A stretch of DNA of 41,384 bases. Origin: a virus. Both the position numbers and the translations under genes were made by a program. Shown here piece after piece: positions 11,320-41,384 of this stretch. Location of the stretch: positions 1 to 41,384 of the IMG/VR virus record IMGVR_UViG_3300010885_004342, one strand, 5' to 3'. The notes below the pieces were generated by a model. It worked only from the letters and a program-made list of their open reading frames with translations, was not told the DNA's origin and searched no databases. Within the stretch, counting starts at the first letter, position 1. Each line of letters opens with the position of its first letter.

Positions 11320-11327
11320 TATTTATG
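11320..11327 (-). promoter_or_regulatory. T4-type late promoter CATAAATA
   Basis: CATAAATA on the minus strand matches NATAAATA exactly and lies in the 37-base gap before the gene starting at 11298. Such an 8-base element is read by the gp55-type late sigma factor, which is encoded at 40052-40876. Confidence 0.75.
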
Positions 11328-16383: not shown

Positions 16384-16391
16384 TATTTATC
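16384..16391 (-). promoter_or_regulatory. T4-type late promoter GATAAATA
   Basis: GATAAATA on the minus strand matches NATAAATA and lies in the 48-base gap between the genes starting at 17149 and 16363. It would drive the structural gene and the fibres at 11336-15753. Confidence 0.75.
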
Positions 16392-16411
16392 AACAGTTAT
16401 TATCTGGTAGT

Positions 16412-17149
16412 TTAATGTAAGTCTTCCCACGCTGAGCCGGTATAAACTTGTAATTTTGCAGCTGATGAATTAAACACTACTGCGCCAGCAACTGCTTGGA
16501 TTTGGTCCCTGTCACCCTGAGTGTAGGAAGGAAATACCACAGGACTCTGCATTAGAATTTTCTTATTAGCACCGGCTGTTACTGTGATTTGATCATCAGC
16601 ATCAATTTCTATCACGCTAGACCACGAAGCTGATTCTCCATCAGTTTTTAAAATATATCCATCATTACCCGTTTGACTAGGCAATCCTGTAATCGCTGTC
16701 CAATTTAAAATTGTTCCATCAGTTTGAAGAAATTTACCTCCGTTTGTTGCTCTAGGAGGTAAAGGTTCTGGTAATTCAATATATTCCCAACTAGCAGCAG
16801 CGCCGTTAGTTTTTAAATATTTTCCGCCATTTCCACCTTGTGTTGGCAGTGATGGAGGAATAGTTACGCTTCCCCAACTAATACTACTCCCGTCAGTGGT
16901 TAAAAACTTTCCGCTTTGACCACTTTGAGTAGGTATTTGACTGTCTGCGCTTAACACACCAGTTGGACTAATTGATAATCGGGTTCCAACTTTAATTGCC
17001 CCCAATGCACTACTAGTTGCCTTTGTTAACATTGATGTTCGTAGTGTTGACAGCGTACTAAGGTTAGTTGCATTGTCTGATACAATTACCACCGATAGTG
17101 TATCGTCAAGTGTTTCTAATTTTACTAAATCTTTTAATCGTTTTGCCAT
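16412..17149 (-). CDS. fibre-like protein with four tandem 21-residue repeats
   Basis: A 245-residue protein. An N-terminal part (1-65) starts MAKRLKDLVKLETLDD, followed by four repeats of about 21 residues at 72-92, 101-121, 130-150 and 156-176 with the pattern P-x(4)-GxxGKaLxTDGxxxSW, and a C-terminal segment that ends YTGSAWEDLH. These repeats are typical of phage fibre and neck structures and would form stacked beta elements. It has GGAG before the ATG and is separated from the 4601-residue gene by no intervening base. Likely a short fibre or fibre-connector; partner unknown. Confidence 0.75.
   Translation of the reverse strand: MAKRLKDLVKLETLDDTLSVVIVSDNATNLSTLSTLRTSMLTKATSSALGAIKVGTRLSISPTGVLSADSQIPTQSGQSGKFLTTDGSSISWGSVTIPPSLPTQGGNGGKYLKTNGAAASWEYIELPEPLPPRATNGGKFLQTDGTILNWTAITGLPSQTGNDGYILKTDGESASWSSVIEIDADDQITVTAGANKKILMQSPVVFPSYTQGDRDQIQAVAGAVVFNSSAAKLQVYTGSAWEDLH
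16622..16936 (-). repeat. four tandem in-frame repeats of a fibre protein
   Basis: This part of the gene at 16412-17149 encodes the repeats GKFLTTDGSSISW, GKYLKTNGAAASW, GKFLQTDGTILNW and GYILKTDGESASW, spaced about 29, 29 and 26 residues apart. The nucleotide copies have diverged, so the similarity is held by protein selection and is not a recent slippage. Confidence 0.8.
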
Positions 17150-23100: not shown

Positions 23101-26100
23101 AAATAATACTTTGATCAACTGCGTTTGGAGCTGAGACAACAACTGTATTTTTCTTAACTGCAAATCCTGTACCAAAGCCGGCTTGAGGAATATCAAATGA
23201 TGCTAGGCTTTCAGAGAATACCCATTTAGAGTAGTACTTGTCATAAACATCTACTCTGCCAGAATCAATAACTTTGTCAAGAACCTTTAATGTATCTCCG
23301 TCAAATGTTGTTGGCAATCCTGACGGTGTTGAATATCCTACCTGATCAACGTCAAATGTTAAAATGTTAGAATTATCTCCGTTGACACTAAAAATTACCA
23401 GGGTGTCATCATTGTTCATAAAGGAAATTTTAGTTCCAAATTGTTCTGATATTTCCGGAATACGGCTCTTTAAAGTTTGATATGGGGTTGTTGAAAATAC
23501 TCCATTAGTTTGTTTAAAAACTTTAACAATACCTTGATCAGTAAATGTATCATCAGCATATCGACTGCTTACAGCAAGATAATGACCGTCACTAGATAAA
23601 GAAATACTTGAACCAAACTGTTCTGTATCATTAAGATCTAAACCTGTTAATGTCTGCGTTAAGCTATATGCGCTATTTGATAAAGAGTAAATGTATGTTG
23701 CACCAGTATCAAGCGATAGTGTAGAAGTATCTTTAGTTGGTGCTGATATTGCTAGATAAGTCCCGTCTGACGATGCTGTAACATCGTGACCGTATCTATC
23801 GTTAGCGGCAGAGCCAACAAGTACAATACTATTCATCGACCACTGATCTACTCCGTTAACTGTAGTGTAATCAAATTGATATACTCTACCTTTACTGCTG
23901 TCGTGCCCAGTTGCTGACACAAACATAGTAGTATTGGTGGAGAATACAATCTTTGAGCCAAACAATTCAGTAGTTGATAATGACGATTGAGTTGGAGAAA
24001 CAATATATGATTGTAAAATAAACTCGCCGGCAGCATTTTTCTTATAAAGAGTAATCATACCTTGTGAAGTGTAAGAACTTGCTACTCCGTTAACTGATGC
24101 CTTTATCGAAGGAGCAGGTCCCCAGAATGTTGAATTACTTGCTGGATTAGTGTTTACTGGAATTGTGCGCAATGCTATGTAGTAATTTCCATTATAACGA
24201 ACAACATCGTTTATCACATAAGTTGTCGTAGAATTACTCCATGTTCCTTTATATTGTGTCTTAACACTTGATGCAGTTGGTGTTCCTATTATTAACCAAG
24301 ATCCGTCTGGACTAAACTCTAATGATTCTCCAAATGCGCCTAGAGAGACAGTTGCTACATCAAGTAAAGTAACAGTTTGTTTTTGAACCCAATTAGCAGA
24401 GGCTGTAGCTTTTTCAAAAATTACAATTTGATTTCTAGTATTTGCAACTGCGGCTGTTAATGCTGATGCAGTTACCGCTATAGTTTTACCGAACGCTAAA
24501 CCAGCTGATGGTTTAGGATTTCTAATAATTTTTTCAGTATAGACATTACTATGGGCATAAACACTCCATTTGCCAGTGCCATTATCATCTACCCATATCA
24601 CTTCGTCTGTTTTTAATCTATTAGGAATTATTGAACTAATATTATCAATATGACTAGCACGTTGTGTAGTAATTTTAAATATCAATAATACACCAGGATC
24701 AACTGTATTTGGATCTGGAAAATCTTTAAATTCTTTATTAATTGTAATTGTAGTTAAATTAACAGATGAGACTTTATGAAACCCTTGAATACTTGTCTCG
24801 TGTAAAATTCCAATAATGTCGTTTGCTGATATGTTAGGAATTATATCTGTAGTCAATGTTAAAACTTTAGTTGTCTTATTATATGAAACAGTTTGAATAT
24901 TAAAAATAGATTTTGTTAGTCTGTAGATATTCCAGTCACGGCCTTCAAACGCACAGTGAATATACGATCCTTCTGAGAATTGCGTAATATCTTTAGAAAT
25001 AATTTCATCTAAAGTATCAATATTAATATCTACTTCATCTGTTTTTACATACCCGGGAGTTCGTAGATAAGGAGTAAAATTCTCGTTAACTGGCCACGGA
25101 GCAGAATTATAATTTAAAGGTTTTAGATAAACGTCATTAGGTGTTTGACGCACAACAAAATCAACACTATTGTTGATAGTTGATGAAACTAATTCGTACG
25201 GCTGAGGATTTAATTTAAACAAACTATCGTTTAATTCAAACTCAATTTGTTCAAATGCTTTTGAACTTCCGTATTGGCCAACACGAACTGCCCACTCTTC
25301 AAAGAACTTAATACTTTCTTTATTATCAGCACTTAGTACATCAAATAATTTGTTAAGAACATTCTGCGTACCCTTTTCAATAATCATACCTTGATAGAAT
25401 TTATATTCTGAAATATCGTCTTGAATGATATTCTCAAGGTACTGACGTTTCTGATAACCAATTAAATGCTGGGCCATTCTTTGTTGGCCAACATCAAAGT
25501 TGTCACTATCTAGGCTGTAGAAATCTTCAAATTGTGCTGCCTTGTAACTCCAATTTGGTATCATTCTTGAAGTAGGTTTTTCTTTTAATTTAATCCAATC
25601 GTTAGAATCAAATTCAAGTACGCCTGGTAAGAAGGCATTGGCACTATAATAAAATTCTTTGTATCTTACAACATCACCAAGATTGTAGTCAGTCCATGCC
25701 GCCCAATTTTTTATTAGAGCTTGGTCATATATAAATCCTGGAATGTCGAATCCGCCTTTCCAATTTGTAGAAATATATCCTGAAACTTTGATTTTTTCTT
25801 GACGATATCCAGTTGTTTGTTCGTAGATTGTATCATTAAACAATGTAGTGTTATCTATCAATAATATGTGTTCTTTTTGTACAAGATAGAAAGTAGCTCC
25901 ATAAATTCCTTCTGTGTTTGCTACAGTATATTCAATTGTATTATCATCTCTAAAAGAATTAATAAATTCAGGTTCTAATTTTTCGCCGTCTGCTTTAAAA
26001 AATTCATAACCGTTAAATTGATCGCGAATATCTTCTAAAACACAGTAAGGTAAATTTGCAATTAGACTTGTAGCCGCAGGACTTAATGCAATAACACTAG

Positions 26101-29100
26101 CGCCAATAGTCGAAAGCTCACCTAATTTATTGTACTGTTCTTCATTAAAAAACACCCCAGAGTTGATATTGTTTTTTACAACATAATAATCGCCGTTGTA
26201 CTGAAGTACTTCACCGCTAACATAATCTTGATTTTCTAACCAATCTGTCCACTTTGTTTCACCTGAGCTCCAGTTTTGTGTAGTCCAGAATAAAAATTCT
26301 TTAGCAGCAGTACGCCAGTCTGTTATTGTTGAAAGGTTATTGTTAAACTCGTCAAATTTAAACCCTTGATCTTTTAAGTATTCACCGTAACCCACTAAGA
26401 AATCAACAACTTCTTGTATTGTTCTAAATTTAGATCCGTAAGCAACTGTGATTAATTCTGTCTTATCCCATCCAGTTCTAATATAAGCATCTCGGCCACC
26501 GACGATAGGAAGTGCTGGTAACTTTTGATAAAAAGTAGAATCAAATGATGACGAAGTAGTATGAGTAACTGTTACTCGATAATATCCACTGTTATATTTT
26601 ACTAGCTTGCCGGAAACATATTGTTGACCAGATTCCCATTCTGAATATGTTTCACTTATTCCGCCAACATTAACTAGATATCCCGCTTGTATCCAAGGGT
26701 AGTAATAGAAATAAGGAGAATTTTTACTATAACCTTTTACTTCATAACCAGTTGATAGTTTAGTAATAATTACACCGCTATATACTAACTTTTTCACCGG
26801 TGAGCTAGTGTTCAATACAATTGAGTAGTTTTCTTGAGGTACAAATACACCTCCAGAGGCTGTTGGATTTTTAGAATCAAGTATTAGATTAAATTTTTCT
26901 TTTTCAGTGAATCCGCCAATTCTGTAGGCTAGTTGTAGGTTTAAATTTTGTAAGTCGTATTTGTATTGTGTAAGTGATTTTAAATTGTCACTCTGAATAT
27001 AGTCAATTAAGTAATTTACAAGACCCGATGTTTGTACTCTAGTATCATCAGAATAAATGTTAGGTAGTACTGCATCTGCTAAACGGAATCTAACTTTTGT
27101 ATCTTTATAAACAATCTGACCAGAAAGATCTCTATAAATTCTTGAACGATCAAATATTCTTCCTACTATAGCTGAAGGGTAAGTTAATAGTAAAGTAGAA
27201 ATTACTGCAAATGGGAAGTACGAACTTCTTCTCCATGCGGCTTCTACTGGGCTTCCGTCACCAAATACAAAATCTCCTCTAGAACTAGGAGTAATTAGGC
27301 CGTCGGCAACATTTGATTCAATTGGAGTTCTTAATAGTCCATCACTGGTAACTGGAATACAGCCTAACAAAAATGGTCTTAAATATTTTGTATTTCTAAA
27401 AATTGGTGCATTTGGATCTCTAACTACACCTTCACTAATATCTTGCCACATTACTAGATTATCACTAGTATATGGTGCTGGTCCGTACTGCTCTTCCCAC
27501 CATGCAGGCATGATGCTAAATCCTAACATTTCCCAAGGACATAGATGAGGTCTATCAGTATCATATATCCACTTGTATATTGCTCTCCAATAGCCCGGAG
27601 TTTCTCTACCATCAGGTGCAGTATGACCTGTATAGTTATATGTAAATGGATCTAGTTTATTGTAGGTCAGCGGTTTAGTAAAATCTCTATCAACTAAATT
27701 AGTCCATTGATAAAAATTTGGTGATAAGATTTCGTTAAATTCTTGTAATGAATATTCACTATTAGAAACGTAGCGAGGAATGTAGTCGTTAATATCAAAT
27801 AAACTAGTGTCGTAGTTAAATTTAATATTGTTAAAAATTCTTAATTCTAATTCTAATAATAATTCGTCTCTGTAATCTGGTGTGCCACCTTCGTCGTATG
27901 TGCCATAAGCTAGTACATGACTGCCGTCGTGTCCTTGGATCATCCAACGACCATTAGGAATGTTTACAGTTGTATCAAGATAAATTTTAGGTTGATACTT
28001 TGGCCATAATCCTAATTTTGTAGGTGTAGAGGGAATAAAACATCCGTCTGTTGTTTCGTATTCAACAATAGTAATTGTATCGTCATTAGCTAGGTTGGAA
28101 TAGTTAATAATAGCAAATCCGTTACCATCAAATGTATAATCAATGCCATAACTTAATTGTAAACCGTTAACATAAATTAGCACCGCTTTTGGACTTAATT
28201 CTCCGATATTAAAATTACTTGATAATGGATAATACTTTGTTCGATAATCAACAACAGTAATGTTAGTTGTTACTGCTGCTCCATAGGGAACCATATCGCT
28301 AAAATAATACGGGAATGTTTTTGGTTTATTCTTATTAATTTCATTAAGGATTGCATCAACAAATTCAACTGTATCAACATCAATGCCTAATGTTTCTGCT
28401 GTTAAAATAAATTGTCTTTTAAACTTTCCGTAGTCATTTTGCGATTGTGTCAATGCTTTAATAAAGTTGTTATCTTTAGAAGTTAAATGATATAATGCTA
28501 ACGGCAATGCACCGCTATGTTGAACAAATTTTGTTCCGTATGGATTAACATTGCCAAGATCTCTAATATTACTTGTGCCTGGGAAATCCCCAGAGAACAA
28601 AGATAAATTATCAATTATTGAATCAACATGATCTACTACTTCACCTAATGTAAATTGAGATACTTCGTTGTTTAATGGATTATTTTGAAGATTTAACGGT
28701 ATTTCATAATACCCAACACTATTTTTAGATTGTCGCGCAAACGATTTGATGGTTAGTACATCAGTTTCAGTAATATCATTAACTAGTGTAACTACCTTGT
28801 AAAGATTGCCATCAGCTACTGACCACAATGACTTATCTAAACGGCGGCCGTTGACATACACTCGAACAACTAAATCACTAAGATCTGTTATATCATCGTA
28901 TACGTCAATGTTAAAATTGTTTGTCTTATTTGAACCTCTATAAATTCTTATGATTGGTTGGTAATTTTCAACTTTACTAATTTCCCAAGCATTAGTATAT
29001 GCTACACTTGAGATTCCGTTAGACTTAATTAATGATCCTGTATTAACAGAAATTGTATTAACATCGTAGATAGTTTTATAAGTGAATGTATCTGATAACA

Positions 29101-30955
29101 GATTAAAATTAAAAAGAATATCTCCTACATTATTGATATTCTTGTAATCAAGAGCAAATCCTAATTCCGAGTCTGCGCTGCCATCGCCAATAGAATAAGA
29201 AAATAATTTAGTCCCAGCGAAAGTTGAGCCTTCATAAACTGTTTTGTCTCCAAAACTATTAAATGTATCATCAACTAAATCAAATAAAGGAGTTTGATTG
29301 TTAGTTGTTTTTGTTTGTCCTAGCAGCCATTCGCTGCCGTTATACCAATACATTAAACCTTGTTTTAGTCTTCCGTATTTTATTAGTGCAGTTTGATGTT
29401 CAACTGGAGTAGATTCTTCTACTAAATGAATCTGGCGTTGACGACTCTCGCCTGGCGGAGTTACTTCGACAAATTCAACTCTATATATTTTGTTTCGAAC
29501 ACGAATATCGGTGTCAGCAGCAAATGCTACACGATGACCGTTTACTAACGAAACTGCATCAATAGCATAGCTAAGTTGACCTTCTACCTCACTAAATGCA
29601 TCAGTTGTAACTGTATCAAGTAAATCAATATCAACTATAGCTTCTAATCCAAAATTAAATAATTTTAATCCAGCTTCAAATTCTATGATTGGTCGAATTG
29701 CACGGGCTGTTTGATCTAAGCTGGCTATTTCTCCGTTTAAAGTTGCACTAGTTTCTATAACATCCTTATGGAACCAACGATTATATCGACTCCACGGATT
29801 GCGATCTTTGCTGGCACGATTAATAACAATGTAATCATTGTTCTTAGGATACGAACTAGCTACTTCAAATGAATTGCTTTCAAAAGGAGTGTCATCAAAT
29901 AAGATTTCAACTGTACTAGAAAAATTGCTAATAATTTCAAGATCTCTCTCAGCAATAAGAGAAATTGCAGAACCAACACCCTCGACATAAAAATAATCAT
30001 TGGCATATTTAGAGGGTGTAACTTCACCTCTAAATTTTACTTTCATACCGTTAGATAAAGAAATTCCATTACCTAATTTATAACTTTTTTTACCAATTAT
30101 TTCTAACTCAACATCAATTTCAGTATTATCTTTTATGTCATAAATTTTAAAAATATTACCAATGTTTGCATCATTTTCACTAACATAGTAAAGCAAGTTT
30201 GGAGCATCATCAGGCACAGTGAAAGTTAAAGTTCCACTTTCTATTGCATACGCAGTATCTGGTCCCCAAGTATATCGTTGGTCTGGCCCTTCAACTTTCT
30301 GTGTCTTGATACTAAACGGTTCTCCAAGGCTATTAATATCAAAGTGATATGTTTGTCCTCTGTATAATTTAATTACAGGATTACGTGTAAGCCCGTTTGG
30401 AGTAAACAAATATTCTTTACTATTGCCCTGATCTTCTATAGTTACAGTATATGTACTAGAAATAGCTCTTTCTTGTCCGTAAACTTCAATGGGTCTAGGA
30501 CCGTAAGGTAGCCAATAGTATTGCTGGAAGTTAACAAACTTATCCCAATCAATATGAGGGTTCCAAGAATAAAATTCTTGACGGTTTAGTCTTTCATGGT
30601 TATCTACCTTTGCACCAAACACACCTAGCTGATTAATATAGTCAATGTAATCTTTATAAAATTCTACGTTTCCTAAATCGTCACTGACTACTAGGCCGGG
30701 CTCTAGTTGATAATTTTTTCTAGTGTCGTCAACAGTTGATATAAAAATATCTTTAGAAGTTGAGGACTTTGCATTTTGGCGCCCAATATAACCGTTGATC
30801 TTTTTAACAACTCCGGGTTGTGTTAATTGATCAATAGTTGCTTGAATAAATTTTTTATTACTATCAGTTCTATAAAATCTAGGGATTAGATCAGAATTTC
30901 GTCTCTTCTGGTCTCCGCCTTTGTATGGAACTGGATTTTCTTTCTGGTTCGCCAT
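17150..30955 (-). CDS. giant 4601-residue tail/baseplate structural protein
   Basis: An uninterrupted 13.8-kb gene, about a third of the window. Its ATG follows the gp6 stop directly (TAAATG), with GGAG upstream inside gp6, so it is in the baseplate operon at the place of T4 gene 7. T4 gp7 is only about 1030 residues, and I cannot show homology. Visible parts: an N-terminal region rich in W, Y and P (about 1-170); core segments such as HLCPWEMLGFSIMPAWWEEQ near residue 1140; five chitin-binding-like modules anchored by W1440, W1572, W1754, W2239 and W4440; a seven-repeat FG-GAP-like propeller (F2155 to about 2630); two pairs of GGxGY-type repeats (around Y3033 and Y3395); many VNGxxL-x(2)-DYT fibre repeats in the last 1100 residues; and a segment near 4290-4360 (FYDTEIVINDD, then GIIEIRGERIEYF) frequent in phage structural proteins. 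A virion role is near certain; polysaccharide contact is inference. Confidence 0.95.
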   Translation of the reverse strand: MANQKENPVPYKGGDQKRRNSDLIPRFYRTDSNKKFIQATIDQLTQPGVVKKINGYIGRQNAKSSTSKDIFISTVDDTRKNYQLEPGLVVSDDLGNVEFYKDYIDYINQLGVFGAKVDNHERLNRQEFYSWNPHIDWDKFVNFQQYYWLPYGPRPIEVYGQERAISSTYTVTIEDQGNSKEYLFTPNGLTRNPVIKLYRGQTYHFDINSLGEPFSIKTQKVEGPDQRYTWGPDTAYAIESGTLTFTVPDDAPNLLYYVSENDANIGNIFKIYDIKDNTEIDVELEIIGKKSYKLGNGISLSNGMKVKFRGEVTPSKYANDYFYVEGVGSAISLIAERDLEIISNFSSTVEILFDDTPFESNSFEVASSYPKNNDYIVINRASKDRNPWSRYNRWFHKDVIETSATLNGEIASLDQTARAIRPIIEFEAGLKLFNFGLEAIVDIDLLDTVTTDAFSEVEGQLSYAIDAVSLVNGHRVAFAADTDIRVRNKIYRVEFVEVTPPGESRQRQIHLVEESTPVEHQTALIKYGRLKQGLMYWYNGSEWLLGQTKTTNNQTPLFDLVDDTFNSFGDKTVYEGSTFAGTKLFSYSIGDGSADSELGFALDYKNINNVGDILFNFNLLSDTFTYKTIYDVNTISVNTGSLIKSNGISSVAYTNAWEISKVENYQPIIRIYRGSNKTNNFNIDVYDDITDLSDLVVRVYVNGRRLDKSLWSVADGNLYKVVTLVNDITETDVLTIKSFARQSKNSVGYYEIPLNLQNNPLNNEVSQFTLGEVVDHVDSIIDNLSLFSGDFPGTSNIRDLGNVNPYGTKFVQHSGALPLALYHLTSKDNNFIKALTQSQNDYGKFKRQFILTAETLGIDVDTVEFVDAILNEINKNKPKTFPYYFSDMVPYGAAVTTNITVVDYRTKYYPLSSNFNIGELSPKAVLIYVNGLQLSYGIDYTFDGNGFAIINYSNLANDDTITIVEYETTDGCFIPSTPTKLGLWPKYQPKIYLDTTVNIPNGRWMIQGHDGSHVLAYGTYDEGGTPDYRDELLLELELRIFNNIKFNYDTSLFDINDYIPRYVSNSEYSLQEFNEILSPNFYQWTNLVDRDFTKPLTYNKLDPFTYNYTGHTAPDGRETPGYWRAIYKWIYDTDRPHLCPWEMLGFSIMPAWWEEQYGPAPYTSDNLVMWQDISEGVVRDPNAPIFRNTKYLRPFLLGCIPVTSDGLLRTPIESNVADGLITPSSRGDFVFGDGSPVEAAWRRSSYFPFAVISTLLLTYPSAIVGRIFDRSRIYRDLSGQIVYKDTKVRFRLADAVLPNIYSDDTRVQTSGLVNYLIDYIQSDNLKSLTQYKYDLQNLNLQLAYRIGGFTEKEKFNLILDSKNPTASGGVFVPQENYSIVLNTSSPVKKLVYSGVIITKLSTGYEVKGYSKNSPYFYYYPWIQAGYLVNVGGISETYSEWESGQQYVSGKLVKYNSGYYRVTVTHTTSSSFDSTFYQKLPALPIVGGRDAYIRTGWDKTELITVAYGSKFRTIQEVVDFLVGYGEYLKDQGFKFDEFNNNLSTITDWRTAAKEFLFWTTQNWSSGETKWTDWLENQDYVSGEVLQYNGDYYVVKNNINSGVFFNEEQYNKLGELSTIGASVIALSPAATSLIANLPYCVLEDIRDQFNGYEFFKADGEKLEPEFINSFRDDNTIEYTVANTEGIYGATFYLVQKEHILLIDNTTLFNDTIYEQTTGYRQEKIKVSGYISTNWKGGFDIPGFIYDQALIKNWAAWTDYNLGDVVRYKEFYYSANAFLPGVLEFDSNDWIKLKEKPTSRMIPNWSYKAAQFEDFYSLDSDNFDVGQQRMAQHLIGYQKRQYLENIIQDDISEYKFYQGMIIEKGTQNVLNKLFDVLSADNKESIKFFEEWAVRVGQYGSSKAFEQIEFELNDSLFKLNPQPYELVSSTINNSVDFVVRQTPNDVYLKPLNYNSAPWPVNENFTPYLRTPGYVKTDEVDINIDTLDEIISKDITQFSEGSYIHCAFEGRDWNIYRLTKSIFNIQTVSYNKTTKVLTLTTDIIPNISANDIIGILHETSIQGFHKVSSVNLTTITINKEFKDFPDPNTVDPGVLLIFKITTQRASHIDNISSIIPNRLKTDEVIWVDDNGTGKWSVYAHSNVYTEKIIRNPKPSAGLAFGKTIAVTASALTAAVANTRNQIVIFEKATASANWVQKQTVTLLDVATVSLGAFGESLEFSPDGSWLIIGTPTASSVKTQYKGTWSNSTTTYVINDVVRYNGNYYIALRTIPVNTNPASNSTFWGPAPSIKASVNGVASSYTSQGMITLYKKNAAGEFILQSYIVSPTQSSLSTTELFGSKIVFSTNTTMFVSATGHDSSKGRVYQFDYTTVNGVDQWSMNSIVLVGSAANDRYGHDVTASSDGTYLAISAPTKDTSTLSLDTGATYIYSLSNSAYSLTQTLTGLDLNDTEQFGSSISLSSDGHYLAVSSRYADDTFTDQGIVKVFKQTNGVFSTTPYQTLKSRIPEISEQFGTKISFMNNDDTLVIFSVNGDNSNILTFDVDQVGYSTPSGLPTTFDGDTLKVLDKVIDSGRVDVYDKYYSKWVFSESLASFDIPQAGFGTGFAVKKNTVVVSAPNAVDQSIISGKVYSFEKKSNAYSWTRSHEQLPVVNLEKIKKVFLYNKKTNTIVTYLDIIDPLQGNIAGIAEQEIKFKTFYDPATYTVGTDSVNVDDGMAWTDKKVGMLWWDMSRAKFLDYNNGDVVYRNTTWNKLYDTASIDIYEWVESSVLPSAWDKLADTETGLASNISGISLYGDSVYSIKRRYDNVSKTFKNTYYFWVKNKTIVPNVTDRYLSAKNVADLIADPKGQGLQFIAFTGTNSFSLANISQSLIHSDINLAIEYWIVDDYSINSHSQWKIISNDPNSSLPISIEEKLIDSLCGKDSNSRVVPDFSLPPKMRYGIENRPRQSMFINRIEALKQYIERINSVLIKYTIVEDRDISDLDQYEVEPSTVTGLYDTVVDTDAELRFIGTSTFRTAELTPTIENGRITSVTVVTSGQGYINAPYITVTGSGIGAKLRAKLNDNGQIVGATILNSGEGYNESTTVLSIRTFSALVKADTDALGQWSIYAYDTVTRAWSRVRSQNYDVRKYWSYTNWYASGYNQFTLIDFTVDATYQLPALTTQIGQVIKVNSVGTGGWLLLEKYADVNSVDYTQSYKVIGRENGTIQIKDNLYNFFNSNLGFDGPLFDGDIYDNTAAIEVRIILTALRNKILIDDLKQDYLDAFFACVRYAFSEQTFIDWIFKTSFVRAQHNVGQLKQKITYNNDNLSDFESYVTEVKPYRTKIREFVSSYDKLDPAYNMVTDFDLQTTYLNNILMPIETALVDGEILTNLDDVYEYPWRNWYDNAGFKLTSITIIDGGSGYLKAPEVRITGGYGTGATAKAYISQGKVNRIVLLTPGSRYFSVPTITLDGGLALEGGVAAKAIATIGDSVVRSNYIKIKFDRVSGQYYITKLQETETFTTISATQKTFNLKWSPSTDILNSTVTVNGIELIKGTYSLTSKKSVTRGYTSYYGLLTLETAPDKGVDVTITYIKDFNYLSAADRINWYYNPATGEIGKDTSQLMHGVDYGGVQIIGLGFEVTQGWGSTPWFTDAWDSLDPTYEDYSITVGGLESVSGYYEFTLPYTPAVGEEINVYYKVFGTERFFRIDSTPYTTVSITEDGGVSSTENFLDIIEGGDSAYVIDGTLDAGDADNPITTTTIIATFIGNGITKKILISDTLLTPNPGDTFIFRKSTSDGSIKPQDTDYDTSLSGGNLAYSTATGLAADDIIIDGDEFVNATTSHGPEEVVPGQIVDTVAVKVTTRPSSGAANIDYNNYVFDGVTTAFTFDQPLSYKQAVMVLVSGPAKDTPTANALRYDPKPLVIDVDFTVDYANKQVILITEPPVGSMISIITFGFSGANLLEIDYFVSDGTSNEFITNASWGTGVSGLIYLNGETVSYELFETDTSYEIVGLVGIRFAIIPPVDSIINYVLASSTVDNFSLMKSEKFTADGDSVTYLLSNVVGTSLPLEQNMLVYASSEDDAAPLVYTSPTSTYYTIENDQYEYYIPKNRFVPYEPDVNQISVFANNKKLKIGSDYTVDLSKISIKLKNRAYHEYEGDQLTISVNRYSTYTCDGSSITFAEAPADGTVINVISFYKHESMEIQRTDINVLVNSTLTPDTFEYYTYHQPFGKIIKLDRSVVNDSRVWLIKNGRILQSSIDYRLNANLSSVTLAKEPLEGDKFTVMTFGSNVVQQSFSFMQFKDMLNRFHYKRLRKSRQTTLKNDLHFYDTEIVINDDRVVSLPNRDLNLPGIIEIRGERIEYFLKTGNVLSQLRRGTLGTGVREVYNAGTVVQDIGITETIPYKDDTIVEQIIADGTSYNYTLETAIPGGFTTAHKYKGANLTSTDAALLPKSAVEVFAGGWIVKGPWATGITYLVNELVTYGSYTYKCLASHTSSEFFADLEYVDEITGIAEPRWQFFIGNIRLKKDSYEVHNSYLHNESPEGDITFDADFTVSNSSNVINLTDLISENVALTVIKRTGKIWEDNGSSLAESNNAISKFIKFDLELINNITDQDGEILADENGNPLEL
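23020..24500 (-). other. FG-GAP-like beta-propeller region in the giant protein
   Basis: Seven copies of an FG- or YG-led strand motif occur at residues 2155, 2208, 2332, 2388, 2447, 2506 and 2594. Examples are FGESLEFSPDGSWLIIGTP, YGHDVTASSDGTYLAISAP and FGSSISLSSDGHYLAVSSR; most are followed by a GxVYxF-type strand. This is the pattern of FG-GAP/integrin-alpha-type blades and the count of seven fits a closed propeller. The interval between blades two and three is about 70 residues longer and holds a chitin-binding-like module (W2239). Confidence 0.7.
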
Positions 30956-34438: not shown

Positions 34439-34446
34439 TATTTATT
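34439..34446 (-). promoter_or_regulatory. T4-type late promoter AATAAATA
   Basis: AATAAATA on the minus strand lies in the gap between gp25 and gp6, 19 bases before the gp6 start. It would drive gp6 and the 4601-residue gene independently of the upstream baseplate operon. Confidence 0.75.
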
Positions 34447-34466
34447 GCTTTTATAAACCGCGTAGT

Positions 34467-34913
34467 TTATTGTGCAAGCAGTCCATTCTTTTGATCAAAT
34501 GTCAACTGCATACTCTGACTAATGTTATACGGCAAATATGTTAAAATACATTCAATTTGAATACCTGATTCGTATGCAGTAACTATAACTTGATCTACTT
34601 TTACTCTAGGATCATAGTTAATAATATCTGTGACATTTTTAGTAATCACTTGCTTAATATCTTCAGTTAACGGTTCAAATAATATATCCCAAATAATTGT
34701 GCCAAACTCTGGATTCATTAGACGTTCGCCCTGACGGACATGGAAATGATTTAATATATCTTGTTTAATTAATTCTAAATCATACAGGCTAAAATTTTCA
34801 GTACTTTGATTTATTGTACTAAAACCTTTGTATGTTTTACTTCTAGGAACATCGGTATTTCTTATAGGAGGGGTTAATACAATTTTGTCGTATAAATTAG
34901 AGTTTGTAGTCAT
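34467..34913 (-). CDS. 25: baseplate wedge protein gp25
   Basis: A 148-residue member of the GPW/gp25 family, the small lysozyme-like fold that anchors sheath initiation and wedge core in T4, Mu-type tails and type VI secretion. The family signature is clear: LIKQDILNHFHVRQGERLMN then PEFGTIIWDILFEPL (about 48-83), with a C-terminal beta hairpin. T4 gp25 is 132 residues. The start shares one base with the gp5 stop (TAATG). No lytic activity is implied by the family name. Confidence 0.95.
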   Translation of the reverse strand: MTTNSNLYDKIVLTPPIRNTDVPRSKTYKGFSTINQSTENFSLYDLELIKQDILNHFHVRQGERLMNPEFGTIIWDILFEPLTEDIKQVITKNVTDIINYDPRVKVDQVIVTAYESGIQIECILTYLPYNISQSMQLTFDQKNGLLAQ

Positions 34914-36271
34914 TACTGTTGCTCCGTATCAGGTGGTTTAATTTTTTCAAATGGATCAGTAACCGTTGTATACTTTTTAAAATATTCAGGTTCGGTTAAT
35001 TCTGGTGCTAAGACTGCTTCTGTTAGATCAGGAGTATGGGATAGCGGATCTAAATTCTCATGCCCTGCCCAAGGCTCTGCTGTAGGGATTCTTGCAGATT
35101 TAGGAGCTTCAGTTGCTGCTGGACCATTCATGTGTATTTGGCCAGCTGTTTCAATATGCTGCTCTGTGCTTTTAATATGCGTTTTTGTTCCGCTAGTTAT
35201 TCGTGTTTCTTTTGTTGAATTAATGTTAAGATTACGTTTAGCCGTTAAATTAATATCTCTGTCTGCGGTAAAATTAATGTCATTTTCACTGTGTACACTA
35301 ATACTGTCTTTAGCATAGATATCAATTTTACCGTTGCTAGTTAATTCAATCCATGTTGTACCTTTAGCATTGCCAATATAAATTAAATCTTCGCTGTTAT
35401 GCAACAGTATTTGATGTCCAGTACGAGTTCTAATTCTCACTAATTCATTATGAGGAATAGTTGGATCGCCGTCAGTTTCGCCGTCACTAGTTGATGCATA
35501 CGCCGGAGGGCCTTCGCTTGCAGGAGTTCTACGTAGAAATTTATCATCGCCATCATCCATTACAAATGTTGTGCCGCCAAGACGACTAACAAATGCTCCA
35601 GGAATTTGATGTTCTTTTTTTCCTACTGTTCCAGTCTTAGCGTCTGATTGTTTATCTATTGGCCCAGGTGTTGATATACCAAATACCATACTTGGTACTT
35701 CTCGTCTAGCACTACTTGTAGTAATACCTCTAATATCGTCTTCTAATAATCCTTGATCCGATAAAACAGTTGTAAGAGGATGTTGGGGTTTTTTAATTTT
35801 AGTTGCATCCGGCTGGGCTGCATCGTTTGATTTTTTATTATATTCGGCTACCGGTGCTCTTTCATATTCGCCTTCAACATTAAACTTTGTTGCTGCAATA
35901 CCAGGAACCATAAAATTTTGATGTTCATCAGGAATACATCCAATCCAATAACCTTTACGAGTATCGCCGTCTATAAAAATTATCATTACTGTAGATCCAA
36001 CATCTGGCGGGACCATCCACATGCCGTAGCTCTTTTGAGTATTGTTATAGTCGTTATCTTCGCCGGTATAGTCAACACTAGTTTGTCCTGCAAAAGGACT
36101 CATATACTTTACTTGATGGAGTGTGCCTTCAGATCCGTCGCCACCAACTAAGTTAAGAATCTCAACTTCAAGCCCGCCCATAAAGTTAGGATCAAGATGG
36201 CTTATAACTTTAGCTAAAAACGGGCCGGGTGTTGGTAGCGGAGCACCGGATGATCTAATTTCTGATGGCAT
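34913..36271 (-). CDS. 5: baseplate hub spike gp5, without a lysozyme domain
   Basis: A 452-residue central spike protein. Residues about 16-125 form the OB-fold of gp5/VgrG proteins: GPFLAKVISHLDPNFMGGLE, then MWMVPPDVGSTVMIIFIDGD and GYWIGCIPDE. Residues about 300-385 are a run of short alternating strands (GKIDIYAKDSISVHSENDIN, FTADRDINLTAKRNLNINS) that build the triple beta-helix needle. T4 gp5 (575 residues) carries a lysozyme domain between these parts; here the intervening stretch (130-290) is a charged linker without a lysozyme-like motif, as also in marine relatives. It shares one base with both neighbours. Confidence 0.9.
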   Translation of the reverse strand: MPSEIRSSGAPLPTPGPFLAKVISHLDPNFMGGLEVEILNLVGGDGSEGTLHQVKYMSPFAGQTSVDYTGEDNDYNNTQKSYGMWMVPPDVGSTVMIIFIDGDTRKGYWIGCIPDEHQNFMVPGIAATKFNVEGEYERAPVAEYNKKSNDAAQPDATKIKKPQHPLTTVLSDQGLLEDDIRGITTSSARREVPSMVFGISTPGPIDKQSDAKTGTVGKKEHQIPGAFVSRLGGTTFVMDDGDDKFLRRTPASEGPPAYASTSDGETDGDPTIPHNELVRIRTRTGHQILLHNSEDLIYIGNAKGTTWIELTSNGKIDIYAKDSISVHSENDINFTADRDINLTAKRNLNINSTKETRITSGTKTHIKSTEQHIETAGQIHMNGPAATEAPKSARIPTAEPWAGHENLDPLSHTPDLTEAVLAPELTEPEYFKKYTTVTDPFEKIKPPDTEQQ

Positions 36272-38688
36272 TAAATTTGAACTCCACCAGTGTTAATAAC
36301 TCCAGGAAGAGACGGTACCTTTGTACTAGTATTAACATTATTATTTTTTCCAGTTATTGAGTTTAATATGTTAATATTAGTAGATGAAATATTTGGTATC
36401 TGTACTGGTTCTGCAGACGGTAATTTTGATGCGGTATTAACTCCCGCAGCCTTGTTGGCAGCAGCAGCTTCTTGTAGCCCTCTTCTATTAAGGTTTAATA
36501 CTTGTGTAAATTTTCCACCGCTGAAGCTATGTTTAACTGTCATAACTTGAAAGATTCCTGAAAAATTTATTAAAAGTTTAGTATCAGCAAAGTCATACAT
36601 ACCGGCACTTTGATTAATGTCTACTGGTGTTCTAAAATTTAAAATAATGTCAACTTCTCCATTTTGATAGTTAACTGTACCGTTAGCATTTAAATTTTGA
36701 TAATTTGTAGGAGGTGCAGTATAATTGCCCTGGCCGCTGTCATTTATGTAATAAGGATCTCCCATAATTTTTAAGTCGGCAGTCATCATATCTGCACCTT
36801 CTGTGACTGCTTCATGGAATTGTCTTGCTACCCTTGTTGATACAGTTTCTGCACCACCGCCGCCTTGCTTGTCAGTACTGGTTGAAGTTCCTACCGGTAA
36901 TACTTTAGATCCAGGAGAACCAGTTACTACAGTCTTTTCACCTTCAGGTTTGTCAATTTTAGAATCTTTTGCGTCTTTGCCTCCGGTATTAGCCTGTGTT
37001 TTTACATCTTGATTGTTATTAAAACTTGAAGCATTAAATTTTGTATAAAATCCTGCACTAATAGAAATATTAAAATCAAGTATATCTAAATTTTTACCTG
37101 TATAAATGTAATTGTATTCTTTAATACATTGCCGTTTTAAATTTTCAAATCCAGGAGCTGGTGTATTAGGAGGCATAATTTTACCAGAATGGACTTTATA
37201 TGGTACAATCCTATAAACTATTAAACTAGGTTTAGTACCTGTTACTGCTAAATTTTCATCACTGGTCAATTGATATAATTGTGTCTCAATTCTCCACCAC
37301 GGTAACATTCCATTTTGATCAATTCCGTCGCCTTTAATTGCTTGACGAGCATAGTCACTTTGTAATAAGATTTGATTAATTGCATTGATCACATCTGTGT
37401 CTTGTCTAAATTTAAATTCACCTTCGGCAGGATCAATAACAACATTTCCTAATGTAACTGTTTTAGTTTTAGGATCGTATGCGCCGGCTTCTTTACCAAA
37501 TGAACTATCTCCTTTTCTTTCAGCATTGAACCCTAGGCTAGCTCTGCCAAGTACGTTGCATGACTCTGGCGCTTGCACTAAATTTTTAGTACTAGTTTCT
37601 GTTACACCTAACTTTTGAAATAGCGTATTATTAGCAGCAGCAGTTGTTGGATTTGAAGTAGCCGAAGAATTATTTTCTTTTGGATTAGGATTAGATGTAG
37701 ACGAAGAACTAGCAACATCAGTTGGAAATACTATTGCAATTTGATCAGCTACCTTGGTCAATCCAGCAGCAACCTGAGACTGATAAAATTGATTCATCAC
37801 TACCTGTAGACTTTTTTCACCGGTTTGAATTACTTCTTGAACTGTTTTACCTTTAACTGAAATATTAGTTTTTAAATTTTTATATCTATCAGAAAACGCT
37901 GCATCGTTCCACGAAGTTGCAGTAATGCTATACACTGCACCTTTGCCCGTTACTTTCATATCAATAGTGTTTAATTTAATAGGTTGATATCTTGTAAATT
38001 GAGGAAGATCAACTGTTTCGTTTTGTTCTGTAAATCCTCTAAATTGAATAGTCAATAGCATAGGAACAGATACAAATGTTCCGCCTGGACTTCTTTGTTG
38101 ACATGCTATTGCAACAGATTGCATGAACAATCCCATGCTGTAGGGCTCAATTACCTGAAAATCTAATGTAGTAGAATTTGTATTTTTAGTAGCTTTATTC
38201 CAACCCATGACACTGTCTATGTTTAAGTTGTCAATAAAAAAATCAAATTGACCGTAATCTGTTTTAACTCTATTTGTTGGATCTCCTGCGGCACTTTTGC
38301 AAATAATAAATTGAGGTATTCCTGCTCGATATGTGCTGTCAGGATTGTTTAAAGATTTATCGTCTAAGACACTTAAGGTAATGATGTAAGTGTAGCTGGC
38401 AAATATTCCTAAGGGATTAGGATAAGGAGGTAATGCATCTGACGGAACTGTTGCTCCGATCATTGAAGGAGCTTTAAGAAGTCCTTTTAGGTCAACATTA
38501 AATGCTCCTAACGGATCTCGTATATTATTTTTCAGTTGTCCTGCAATTTGATTAGATGCTGACTGGATTTGCGCTGAGTTTTTTGCTAAGCCAGCTGACA
38601 AATCTTTTGCCAGAGAACTTTCTGTTAAAGTTTTTTTTGCAGAGTCAACTGCATTAGTTGCTGTTGATATAATATCAAAGACTGCCAT
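36271..38688 (-). CDS. large baseplate structural protein, hub (gp27-like) candidate
   Basis: An 805-residue virion protein between gp53 and gp5. The first 60 residues are alanine- and serine-rich helix. Residues about 95-320 look like a tail-core domain (ASYTYIITLSVLDDKSLN, FDFFIDNLNIDSVMGWNKAT, VPMLLTIQFRGFTEQNETVD). A low-complexity S/N/P/T linker lies near 330-355 and another near 570-620. The end of the folded part (about 700-735) reads GIFQVMTVKHSFSGGKFTQV and LNLNRRG, a pattern of hub proteins of contractile tails (T4 gp27, Mu gp44). Together with its place next to the spike, this supports a hub role, but the assignment is inference. The last 65 residues are linker-like. Confidence 0.75.
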   Translation of the reverse strand: MAVFDIISTATNAVDSAKKTLTESSLAKDLSAGLAKNSAQIQSASNQIAGQLKNNIRDPLGAFNVDLKGLLKAPSMIGATVPSDALPPYPNPLGIFASYTYIITLSVLDDKSLNNPDSTYRAGIPQFIICKSAAGDPTNRVKTDYGQFDFFIDNLNIDSVMGWNKATKNTNSTTLDFQVIEPYSMGLFMQSVAIACQQRSPGGTFVSVPMLLTIQFRGFTEQNETVDLPQFTRYQPIKLNTIDMKVTGKGAVYSITATSWNDAAFSDRYKNLKTNISVKGKTVQEVIQTGEKSLQVVMNQFYQSQVAAGLTKVADQIAIVFPTDVASSSSTSNPNPKENNSSATSNPTTAAANNTLFQKLGVTETSTKNLVQAPESCNVLGRASLGFNAERKGDSSFGKEAGAYDPKTKTVTLGNVVIDPAEGEFKFRQDTDVINAINQILLQSDYARQAIKGDGIDQNGMLPWWRIETQLYQLTSDENLAVTGTKPSLIVYRIVPYKVHSGKIMPPNTPAPGFENLKRQCIKEYNYIYTGKNLDILDFNISISAGFYTKFNASSFNNNQDVKTQANTGGKDAKDSKIDKPEGEKTVVTGSPGSKVLPVGTSTSTDKQGGGGAETVSTRVARQFHEAVTEGADMMTADLKIMGDPYYINDSGQGNYTAPPTNYQNLNANGTVNYQNGEVDIILNFRTPVDINQSAGMYDFADTKLLINFSGIFQVMTVKHSFSGGKFTQVLNLNRRGLQEAAAANKAAGVNTASKLPSAEPVQIPNISSTNINILNSITGKNNNVNTSTKVPSLPGVINTGGVQI

Positions 38689-38689
38689 A

Positions 38690-38989
38690 TTAAATTCCTA
38701 AAATTGTTTTTAAACTATTACCTTTAGGAATATAAATTTTTATTCCCGGAGTAAAGTCAAAAATTGGATCTTGTATAGTATCTAAATTTCGTTGAGTAAA
38801 TACCCACCACAAACTTGCATCACCATATAAATCATAGGCTAGCAAATCTGGTCTATGTGTATATTGAGGTTCAATAGTATATAAAAAATCATCTTCTTCG
38901 GCAGATACTGGACGTATCTGAAAAATGTCAAGATACGTATCGTTCATAGGAGTAGAGTACCATGGACTCTTTGCTGTATATTTGGCCAT
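38690..38989 (-). CDS. 53: baseplate wedge protein gp53-like
   Basis: A 99-residue protein with the gp53-type core: YFxxRPDLLAYDLYGDASLWWVF, seen here as HRPDLLAYDLYGDASLWWVF (about 47-66), then FTPGIKIYIPKG (79-90), which resembles a LysM-like fold. T4 gp53 is about 196 residues, so this is a short version, as usual in marine T4-like phages. The T4 protein clips the wedge to the hub. Its ATG shares one base with the upstream stop; the next gene follows after one base with AGGAA inside its own 3' end. Confidence 0.85.
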   Translation of the reverse strand: MAKYTAKSPWYSTPMNDTYLDIFQIRPVSAEEDDFLYTIEPQYTHRPDLLAYDLYGDASLWWVFTQRNLDTIQDPIFDFTPGIKIYIPKGNSLKTILGI

Positions 38990-39975
38990 TAGATATATCC
39001 TGCTCCGCTGCTTGTCATGTAATCACCATTGACAAATTTATTAAGACTAAATGTTCTTACACTTTCTCTACTATAAGAAGGTTGTAGAGTAATAGTAAAT
39101 TGACTCTTAGTTGGCACATGACTGCTTGCTTTAGAAGTTCCTCCGCCAAGTGAACTAGCACTAGATGATAACAATGCACCTGCAGCCATTCCAACTACAT
39201 TTTGCACTTGTTGTTTAGCATTTTGAAGAGCAGGTAAATTAGATAAAACTCCTCCAATAGAACTTGATTGGTCTGCAGATACAGTTGAAATATAATCAGA
39301 AGCTCCGTCAAGTGATACGCTAAAATTAGTAATTACTACTGGAACATTTTTAAAAACATATTCTCCGTATCCGTTTAATGCCAGTATTGGTGGAGGATTA
39401 CCTGCCGGAGTTGAGTCACCAGTGAACATTTTAGTAACTGCACGTAAAAAATGTACTGTGGCAATCCAGTATTGTGCTTCGGCAGAATTTTCTACTAGGA
39501 AAGGTGCTGTAATTGTCATTTGATCCGGAGAGCTGTTTTGATATGCTTGGAAAGGGTAGTTGTTGTGTACCGGAGTAATTGCATCATACTTTGCACTACC
39601 ACCAATATTGATTGTTGGTGTGTAGGGAAACACTAGGCCGCCGGCGGCTTTCAATGGTGCAAACACTGGGCTTGAGTCAAATATGGTACTACCTGGTACA
39701 GTTAATCGAACACGCCAATCATTGTTAGCGTCTGATCCTCCAAACGTTGCACTAGACTTAAAAATCTTTCCAGTAGCATCGCCACCAATTGGAAGGTTAA
39801 CACTCCGTAATTGACTGAGTAGCTTATTGGGGTTAGATAAATTACTAAGTGCGTCGCCTATTCTTTGTCCGATGTTCTGTGCAGAACCTAATTGCCCAAA
39901 ACCACCGCTAACGCTTGAACCAAACTGTTGAGCAGCACTAGCAATTGAACCTGGATTTACGTCGAATGAACTCAT
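38989..39975 (-). CDS. baseplate tail-tube cap/initiator-like protein (gp48/gp54 type)
   Basis: A 328-residue structural protein. The N-terminus is rich in S, G and Q; the core has DWRVRLTVPG, GLVFPYTPTINIGGSAKYD, then MTITAPFLVENSAEAQYWI and LNGYGEYVFKNVPVVITNFS, a pattern found in baseplate tube proteins of marine T4-like phages. T4 gp48 and gp54 (364 and 320 residues) cap the hub and start the tail tube; length fits either. The choice between the two cannot be made from this sequence. It is the first gene of the baseplate operon, with AGGAG before the ATG and a consensus late promoter 20 bases further upstream. Confidence 0.75.
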   Translation of the reverse strand: MSSFDVNPGSIASAAQQFGSSVSGGFGQLGSAQNIGQRIGDALSNLSNPNKLLSQLRSVNLPIGGDATGKIFKSSATFGGSDANNDWRVRLTVPGSTIFDSSPVFAPLKAAGGLVFPYTPTINIGGSAKYDAITPVHNNYPFQAYQNSSPDQMTITAPFLVENSAEAQYWIATVHFLRAVTKMFTGDSTPAGNPPPILALNGYGEYVFKNVPVVITNFSVSLDGASDYISTVSADQSSSIGGVLSNLPALQNAKQQVQNVVGMAAGALLSSSASSLGGGTSKASSHVPTKSQFTITLQPSYSRESVRTFSLNKFVNGDYMTSSGAGYI

Positions 39976-39994
39976 ATTGAATCTCCTGATACTC

Positions 39995-40002
39995 TATTTA
40001 TT
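39995..40002 (-). promoter_or_regulatory. T4-type late promoter AATAAATA
   Basis: AATAAATA on the minus strand lies 20 bases before the gene starting at 39975 and would drive the whole baseplate operon. Its last base (40002) is also the first base of the divergent sigma70 -35 box of gp55. Confidence 0.8.
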
Positions 40003-40030
40003 TGACAAAATTATCTACGTAGTTTATAAT
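40002..40030 (+). promoter_or_regulatory. perfect consensus sigma70 promoter of the gp55 operon
   Basis: TTGACA (40002-40007) and TATAAT (40025-40030) both match consensus exactly, separated by 17 bases. This predicts strong early transcription by unmodified host RNA polymerase of the late sigma factor and gp47. The spacer contains the palindrome CTACGTAG (40015-40022). A GAGGA ribosome binding site follows before the ATG at 40052. Confidence 0.9.
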
Positions 40031-40051
40031 CTAACATGAGGATCCTATATA

Positions 40052-40876
40052 ATGACTAAAGTTAACTACTTAAACAATAAAGATATATTAGAAGAAATAC
40101 ATCGTTCAAAAAACACCTATTCTAGCTACACAAAACCCGAATATAGCAGATACGATCTTATACTGCCCAATGTTGACAAGATCAACATTAGAACTGTTGC
40201 TGAGGCCAAACGAGCACAGGCTAAACGCCTTGGACAAGAAGAATACCAAAGACGTAAAGCTCTCGGTGAGAAGGTTAAACTAGCCGACTGTGAAGTAGAC
40301 TATAAAAAGATTCCTAAGACAGATGTGGTCTTTAGAATTATGACTTTTGATCATATTCCGTTAAACAACACTAGAAAACGCAATCCAAAGACCTTGGCAG
40401 ATCATAGAGATAAAGTAAACTTTCCACCGTATCAACATTGGAAGTTTGACGAGAATGATCTACTAGTATGTGTGGGTAAAAGCCACTGGAAAGGTGGTAT
40501 TGAAAAGGGTAAGTTTTCAAAAGATCACGGACAAATTACAAATAATCTAGCACGTATGTACATTAAGCTCTGTGAGCGTTATGCTACCCGTGGTAATGTT
40601 CGCGGTTATACTTATAATGACGAAATGAAGGGCCAGGCTATTCTACAATTAACGCAGATTGGTCTACAGTTTGATGAGTCAAAGTCCGACAATCCGTTTG
40701 CCTACTACACTGCTGCTGTTACTAACAGCTTTGTTAGAGTTATTAACATAGAAAAACGCAATCAAACAATACGTGACGATATTTTAGAAATCAATGGTAT
40801 GAATCCCAGCTACTCAAGAACAAGTTCAGGGGAGCATGCCGCAGCAGTTAAACGATTTGATGAAGGTGCTGAATGA
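40052..40876 (+). CDS. 55: late-transcription sigma factor gp55
   Basis: A 274-residue protein of the T4 gp55 family, which recruits host RNA polymerase to the late promoter element with the sliding clamp as enhancer. The conserved sigma-2-like segment is at about 205-250: DESKSDNPFAYYTAAVTNSF then RVINIEKRNQTIRDDILEIN. T4 gp55 is 185 residues; the extra length is mainly an N-terminal region (1-150), including basic ARRA-like stretches (EAKRAQAKRLGQEEYQRRKA) and an aromatic PPYQHWKFDENDL segment, as in marine relatives. It is transcribed from a perfect sigma70 promoter and its stop overlaps the gp47 start as ATGA. The matching late promoters lie on the opposite strand immediately next door. 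Confidence 0.92.
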   Translation: MTKVNYLNNKDILEEIHRSKNTYSSYTKPEYSRYDLILPNVDKINIRTVAEAKRAQAKRLGQEEYQRRKALGEKVKLADCEVDYKKIPKTDVVFRIMTFDHIPLNNTRKRNPKTLADHRDKVNFPPYQHWKFDENDLLVCVGKSHWKGGIEKGKFSKDHGQITNNLARMYIKLCERYATRGNVRGYTYNDEMKGQAILQLTQIGLQFDESKSDNPFAYYTAAVTNSFVRVINIEKRNQTIRDDILEINGMNPSYSRTSSGEHAAAVKRFDEGAE

Positions 40877-41384
40877 GTTTATTCAAGAAAGTTGCTTGTT
40901 TTACAGACATACACTTTGGCTTAAAAAGCAATAGCCAAACACATAATAGAGATTGTGAAGACTTTGTAGATTGGTATATTGCCAAGGCCAAAGAAGAAGG
41001 CTGCGATACAGGCATTTTCTTAGGAGATTGGCATCATAATCGCAATACTCTAAACATCACTACCATGGATTATAGTCTAAGGGCATTAGAAAAGCTGGGC
41101 AAAGCATTTGATCAGTTTTACTTCTTCCCAGGTAATCACGACTTGTACTATAAGGACAAGCGTGATATTCATTCTGTTGAGTTTGGCAAGTACATCCCGG
41201 GTGTTACAGTAGTACACAAACCTACAGTTATAGATGATGTGTTATTATGTCCGTGGCTTGTAGGTGACGAATGGCGTAACATTGGTAAATCAAAGGCTAG
41301 ATATGTGTTTGGACACTTTGAATTACCTAGCTTCTTTATGAACGCCATGGTACAGATGCCCGATCACGGCGAGATACAACTAGA
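40873..41384 (+). CDS. 47: recombination endonuclease subunit gp47 (SbcD/Mre11-like), 5' part
   Basis: The gene runs off the window; 170 codons are visible. It is a metallophosphoesterase with the expected motifs in order: D12-x-H14 (TDIHFG), G51-D52 (LGDWHHN), N88-H89-D90 (PGNHD) and GH at 147-148 (FGHFE). T4 gp47 pairs with the SMC-like ATPase gp46 to resect DNA ends for recombination-dependent replication; gp46 is expected just beyond the window. The start ATG overlaps the gp55 stop (ATGA). No frameshift or odd residue is visible in this part. Confidence 0.93.
   Translation, partial: MSLFKKVACFTDIHFGLKSNSQTHNRDCEDFVDWYIAKAKEEGCDTGIFLGDWHHNRNTLNITTMDYSLRALEKLGKAFDQFYFFPGNHDLYYKDKRDIHSVEFGKYIPGVTVVHKPTVIDDVLLCPWLVGDEWRNIGKSKARYVFGHFELPSFFMNAMVQMPDHGEIQL

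Follow-up and report, generated by a model that had tools for sequence, protein, structure and literature searches.

The late promoters of bacteriophage T4 (TATAAATA), which work with gp55, gp33 and gp45, have no upstream or −35 element according to the available portion of a T4 review (PMC2988020). For phage CBB, the accessible text of the genome paper places ATAAATA ahead of structural genes and an RpoD-like promoter ahead of the gp55 gene, and no description of an overlap of the two promoters was found in that text (PMC5259590). Early and late promoters combined at one place have been described for middle genes of RB49, S-PM2 and Syn9, where, as we read the accessible sections, both promoters serve one gene (PMC2984593). 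The A2b/A2c–A3 region of phi29 holds early promoters together with a late promoter, and the available sections report that protein p4 activates one and represses the others (PMC3100819).

The sequence analysed here, an IMG/VR virus record of 41,384 bp referred to below as the window, represents part of a jumbo myophage genome in which a sigma70-type promoter and a late promoter occupy the same 36 bp on opposite strands. A sigma factor of the gp55 family, and a TAAATA core in the −10 position ahead of structural genes, are shared with T4 and with the cyanophage NATAAATA promoters, and the divergent pair of structural gene and gp55 gene is shared with CBB. The difference from T4 is a conserved box upstream of the −10 element, present at three of the four late sites of the window and at their orthologues; the late promoter thus appears T4-like in its working, yet not of the T4 type as regards the upstream element. 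CBB differs in that no box was seen there, and its −35-like hexamer lies 3–6 nt from TATTTA. Unlike in RB49, S-PM2 and Syn9, the two promoters diverge and serve the gp55 gene and the baseplate operon, respectively. As in the phi29 switch, early and late promoters lie in one region, but here the late promoter would use a gp55-type sigma factor and the core promoters themselves interleave. Neither this interleaved pair nor late promoters with an upstream box were found described in the open-access literature, to which the search was confined. The second late element, the box, is the new part.

The gp55-like gene (40052–40876, plus strand, 274 aa) matched phrog_12791 (E 6e-77) and phrog_234 (E 1e-23), and is followed by a gene for a gp47/SbcD-like nuclease subunit (40873–41382, plus strand), which is truncated by the window end. 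On the minus strand the baseplate operon begins with a virion structural protein gene (38989–39975; phrog_12050, E 2e-45) and continues with genes for a gp53-like wedge protein, a structural protein, a gp5-like hub/lysozyme and a gp25-like wedge protein (34467–38989, minus strand), after which the gp6-like wedge gene follows on the same strand; the T4 gene numbers of the hub and wedges are our reading of the PHROG labels. The nearest named relatives of the gp55-like protein are those of the jumbo phages MIJ3 and PA5oct (47–48% identity), followed by Phosso and Atu_ph07 and then by the RaK2-, 121Q- and CBB-like phages.

The gp55-like protein was modelled by AlphaFold2 on 42 homologues (A2) with a mean pLDDT of 88. 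The best fold match was T4 gp55 (7d7c_F; Foldseek E 0.003; VIA Z 13.9 with 120 residues aligned and an rmsd of 3.3), the top matches of the fold search were sigma-like only, and the PDB 7d7c profile matched the protein with E 1e-9, so that by both sequence and fold it falls in the gp55 late sigma family. The model matches sigma regions 1.2 and 2. The fold matches span from the N-terminal helix, at the position of region 1.2, to residue 235 with only about 90–120 residues aligned, which implies an insert of about 130 aa (residues about 26–160) before the sigma2 part; such an insert is absent from T4 gp55. A sigma4-like part after sigma2 was not seen in the model or its fold matches, which makes it plausible, as far as a predicted structure goes, that the box is read by something other than the sigma domains of gp55.

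A sequence-only reading of this DNA had placed a minus-strand late element AATAAATA at 39995–40002 and a perfect plus-strand TTGACA-N17-TATAAT at 40002–40030, between a baseplate operon on the minus strand and a gp55-like sigma gene on the plus strand. Both pairs of coordinates proved exact to the base, and the PHROG matches bore out the divergent genes. The plus strand of 39995–40002 reads TATTTATT and the minus strand hence AATAAATA, with the TAAATA core at 39995–40000. The plus-strand promoter has its −35 hexamer TTGACA at 40002–40007 and its −10 hexamer TATAAT at 40025–40030, separated by 17 nt, and thus matches the sigma70 type perfectly; it is the single exact TTGACA-N16-18-TATAAT of the window (shuffle mean 0.07), and the ATG of gp55 starts 21 nt after the end of its −10. 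Its agreement with the host sigma70 consensus suggests that it belongs to the early class.

The word ATAAATA occurs 4 times in the window against 26.8 expected, each time on the minus strand and ending 18–21 nt before the start of an ORF, as expected for T4-type late promoters; a TATAAATA-like element thus precedes late structural genes here, 4/4 of these sites lying before minus-strand ORFs. Besides the one beside gp55, they comprise a boxed promoter before the gp6-like gene (34439–34470, minus strand; box at 34453–34470, register +1), a boxed promoter before ORF 15755–16363 (16384–16416, minus strand; box at 16399–16416) and CATAAATA at 11320–11327 on the minus strand, which has no box. The shorter word TAAATA was found 19 times where 86 would be expected, which suggests that words resembling late promoters are avoided within genes.

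According to the same reading the two promoters share a single base. Base 40002 of the plus strand is indeed common to both, but the sharing extends to 26 bp, 40002–40027, once the late box ATAAACTACGTAGATAAT is counted. This partly palindromic minus-strand box spans 40010–40027 and reaches into the early −10 at 40025–40027. With the late −10 directly beside the early −35 and the box running into the early −10, the promoters interleave, and the steric overlap proposed earlier is strengthened by the newly found box. The conservation of this arrangement was followed in IMG/VR gp55 loci, taken as the best 80 of a longer match list; one without upstream DNA (L050) was left out, and the 79 remaining loci and the window gave 80 sequences. 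Among the matches listed, TATTTA was present in 80/80 and was followed after 0–3 nt by TTGAC or TTGAT in 79/80, the exception being L076, in which TATTTA is kept and the early −35 is absent. When the −10 hexamer was also required the count was 78/80, with L060 (TATAGT) as the second miss. In these 78 sequences, which comprise 55 distinct cores, a single nucleotide (75 sequences) or none (3 sequences) separated TATTTA from TTGAC/TTGAT, and the early spacer was 17 nt throughout. The −35 was TTGACA in 25, TTGACT in 52 and TTGATT in 1, and the −10 was TATAAT in 68. Of the 79 loci, 78 showed a divergent ORF, and the remaining one (L019) has too little DNA. TAAATA lies mostly 16–26 nt from the divergent start, and the early −10 mostly 16–27 nt from the start of gp55, both distances drifting by about 10 nt; values of 0–3 nt at 7 loci in this count represent a CAT adjoining TATTTA. 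The fixed inner spacing, the variable distances to the genes and the conservation in 79/80 together argue that the overlap matters.

The first sign of the box was the presence of early-spacer letters on the minus strand at two other late promoters of the window. The early spacer contains a conserved stretch, GCRTAGTT, ahead of the −10, and a sigma70 promoter has no need of a conserved spacer. The conserved GTAGTTTATAAT was considered as a general feature of the early promoters of these phages and rejected, since nine contigs gave 48 TTGAC-N18-TATAAT sites and none of these but the 6 at gp55 scored above 6 bits. Orthologues were collected for the gp6 promoter (80 loci, TAAATA in 80/80) and for the promoter at 16384 (80 loci, 77 with upstream DNA and 74 with TAAATA), admitting only sites 14–24 nt before the start in these two groups, and 56 gp6, 48 16384 and 69 gp55-region unique sequences were aligned on TAAATA. 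All three groups contained a common, partly palindromic motif of 18 bp, approximately ATWAACTACGCASWTWAT, in a single register at −27 to −10 upstream of TAAATA. The early hexamers (GTCAA adjoining TAAATA and ATTATA at −30 to −25) were conserved only at gp55, and the −35 TTGACA was likewise conserved at that locus only among the promoter groups compared.

With a matrix trained on the gp6 group the gp55 region averaged 13.8 bits at register 0, no other tested offset exceeding 0.5, and the matrix from the 16384 group gave 9.9 against at most −1.3. In cross tests with cluster representatives (30, 42 and 18) register 0 came first in 18/18 and was never reached by shuffles. The left edge of the box was suspect because the TAA stop codon of the upstream gene (gp6, 16384) or the early −10 (gp55) falls there; an artefact of this kind was rejected, as columns −22 to −10 and −21 to −14 alone still ranked register 0 first. 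The exceptional locus L076 keeps the box (11.7 bits at +1).

In a scan of nine contigs including the window, boxed TAAATA sites above 6 bits numbered 2–5 per contig and 11 in the 372-kb contig G001, where several are inside genes and seem to be matches by chance; in the window, G005 and G006 every boxed site lies directly before a gene. The boxed promoters are those divergent from gp55, those of gp6 and of the 16384 type, and one before the gene beside a tail tube-like gene, the latter name being our reading of the protein and not a search match. TAAATA sites lying 14–26 nt before ORFs scored above 5 in 19 of 78 cases in the nine contigs, which indicates that the box marks a subset of late promoters; as the matrices had been trained on orthologues of these promoters, this count represents recognition and not independent discovery. 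In a fourth promoter group, which follows a terminator-like hairpin, 7 of the 10 loci found carry the box, several of the 7 being near-identical, and L387–L389 depart from the pattern.

The best two-fold symmetry had the same centre in the three promoter groups, with values of 4.2, 3.6 and 5.9 of 9 pairs, the largest values in shuffles being 3.05, 2.98 and 3.30, respectively. The symmetry is partial, pair −20/−17 being mostly mismatched, and palindromicity alone does not decide between an operator and a −35 element. A counterpart of the p4-type regulator site of phi29 is limited here to a candidate binding site, suggested by the box symmetry and the conserved arms. T4 MotA boxes lie near −30 of middle promoters, and the box resembles them in its position relative to the start; it differs in sequence and in being paired with a TAAATA late promoter.

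The divergent pair is also found, more loosely spaced, in further jumbo phages. Among ten named phages examined, eight carry the structural gene and gp55 as a divergent pair (PA5oct, MIJ3, RaK2, CBB, 121Q, Vibrio 2.275.O, SCTP-2 and Hallingskeid, the last with a tiny extra ORF annotated), a nucleotidyltransferase gene intervenes in Atu_ph07 and Phosso, and all ten have TATTTA on the right strand. In 14 unique CBB-like sequences the −35-like hexamer lies mostly 3–6 nt from TATTTA, the −35 sequences differ from the window type and a box was not seen. In 39 unique PA5oct-like sequences the early TTGAC usually lies about 36 nt from TATTTA, and the box is found at register +1 with its arms ATAAAM and GTTTAT conserved and its centre not. 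A fragmentary match (L361) was excluded from both counts, and the automatic picks for these loci are partly wrong, gaps of 4 and 29 nt stemming from the search pattern and not from the DNA; L343, L352, L355 and other PA5oct-like loci depart from the pattern. The box scores in PA5oct itself are modest, 7.3 bits at gp55 and 9.7 bits at one other site in the tail region among 611 TAAATA scanned. In this phage the gp55-like gene is gp346 and the baseplate genes are gp347–gp350, and its record includes ncRNA annotations based on RNA-Seq. An exact AAACTA-N16-20-TAAATA was found in 7/11 records and is too strict a pattern. The comparison indicates that in two clades the box accompanies the late promoter and that the place of the early promoter depends on the clade. 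The layout is widely conserved in environmental phages, and its looser versions occur in the culturable PA5oct and CBB. A separate observation is that in most of the PA5oct-like loci L315–L341 the distance from the late TATTTA to the early TTGAC is exactly 36 nt, a second constant spacing specific to a clade.

The reading that we consider probable is that of a divergent promoter pair within 36 bp, used by the host polymerase and then by gp55, with mutual exclusion and feedback on gp55. The host sigma70 polymerase would read the plus-strand promoter and the gp55-like late sigma factor would be made; this would take the host core polymerase to late promoters, including the minus-strand one driving the baseplate operon. 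The baseplate promoter would be held closed while host polymerase occupies the gp55 promoter, and the late holoenzyme, once formed, would block the gp55 promoter and limit the synthesis of gp55. Since the late −10 abuts the early −35 and the box overlaps the early −10, one polymerase would cover both, and from the sequence we infer that mutual exclusion and self-limiting gp55 synthesis are likely, on the assumption that both sites fire and do so at different times. The earlier emphasis was on host polymerase covering the late site; the exclusion could run in the opposite direction, the late holoenzyme shutting the gp55 promoter. A polymerase usually covers from about −40/−55 to +20, and with starts some 6 nt past each −10 the two footprints would overlap by about 45 bp. 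The available portion of the T4 review mentions an unpublished observation in which a gp55–gp33 fusion competed with transcription by sigma70 from a strong promoter (PMC2988020), and this makes competition between polymerases reasonable here. The switch is favoured by the box at the gp55 locus, which matrices built on other promoters predict at exactly register 0 and which L076 retains; against it count the absence of the early −35 from L076 and the usual spacing of about 36 nt in the PA5oct-like phages, which shows that some jumbo phages do without tight interleaving. A box interleaved with the promoter of the late sigma factor itself would constitute a compact early-to-late switch with built-in feedback.

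Part of the spacing could be an inheritance from a common ancestor, with no selection for the overlap. It may also be supposed that independent promoters share scarce intergenic DNA and overlap without any regulatory effect. Intergenic DNA makes up about 2–7% of the nine contigs scanned, and the PA5oct-like relatives manage with the early −35 some 36 nt away; however, the inner gap is 0–1 nt in 78/78 although the outer distances drift, and the CBB-like phages keep the pair within 3–6 nt with other −35 sequences, so that we regard packing alone as an unlikely explanation. As regards the reader of the box, it is possible, if short of probable, that the box binds a separate dimeric DNA-binding protein, which acts on a few tail promoters from some 29 bp before the start and represses gp55 by lying on the early spacer and −10 of that locus. 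The two-fold symmetry about one centre in three promoter groups, above all shuffles, the conserved arms and free centre of the PA5oct-like box, the presence of the box in only a subset of late promoters and a gp55 model that matches sigma regions 1.2 and 2 and in which nothing like sigma4 was seen are all consistent with such a protein, but no regulator of this kind is annotated in PA5oct, the symmetry is only partial, and the fixed register to TAAATA would suit a −35-type contact of polymerase equally well. The switch would then be worked by a regulator and not by polymerase competition alone, and the dimeric protein is compatible with the preferred interleaved switch as an added layer.

The fixed register in three promoter groups, and the position of the box at about −38 to −21 if the start is as in T4, have also to be weighed in terms of a −35-type element read by the late holoenzyme, for example through the gp55 insert of about 130 aa, which T4 gp55 lacks, or through a gp33 counterpart, late promoters then being two-part like those of sigma70. 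T4 gp33 touches upstream DNA according to the available part of one report (PMC7892883), but in the accessible portion of the T4 review it does not recognise sequence (PMC2988020), and the CBB paper, in its accessible text, reports no gp33 or gp45 homologue (PMC5259590). As most late promoters are without the box and the gp55 model shows no sigma4-like domain, a reading by the holoenzyme seems doubtful. It is tempting to speculate, and we do so tentatively while regarding it as a serious possibility, that these phages form a T4-like jumbo phage lineage with two-part late promoters, composed of TAAATA and an 18-bp near-palindromic box near −30, at a few promoters mostly of tail genes, and that a single binding event of a phage factor at the gp55 box, placed over the early spacer and −10, would both switch the baseplate operon on and shut the late sigma gene down. 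A conserved box at only some of the late promoters would give jumbo phages a second level of control, probably over tail assembly.

Some minor features of these genomes may be added. At L117 (14611, minus strand) and L380–L386 (near 600) the TAAATA of a boxed late promoter, directly after a terminator-like hairpin, ends 4–5 nt before the ATG, and the mRNA would be leaderless. The late region of the window contains a single minus-strand ORF of 4601 aa (17150–30955). Another near-perfect sigma70 promoter of the window, with one mismatch, is located at 25–53 on the plus strand before ORF 84–1277; its 17-nt spacer is a strong hairpin, ACACCTCC-TTCG-GGAGGTGT, and a promoter with an inverted repeat in its spacer also occurs in a relative (G008, 8060–8088).
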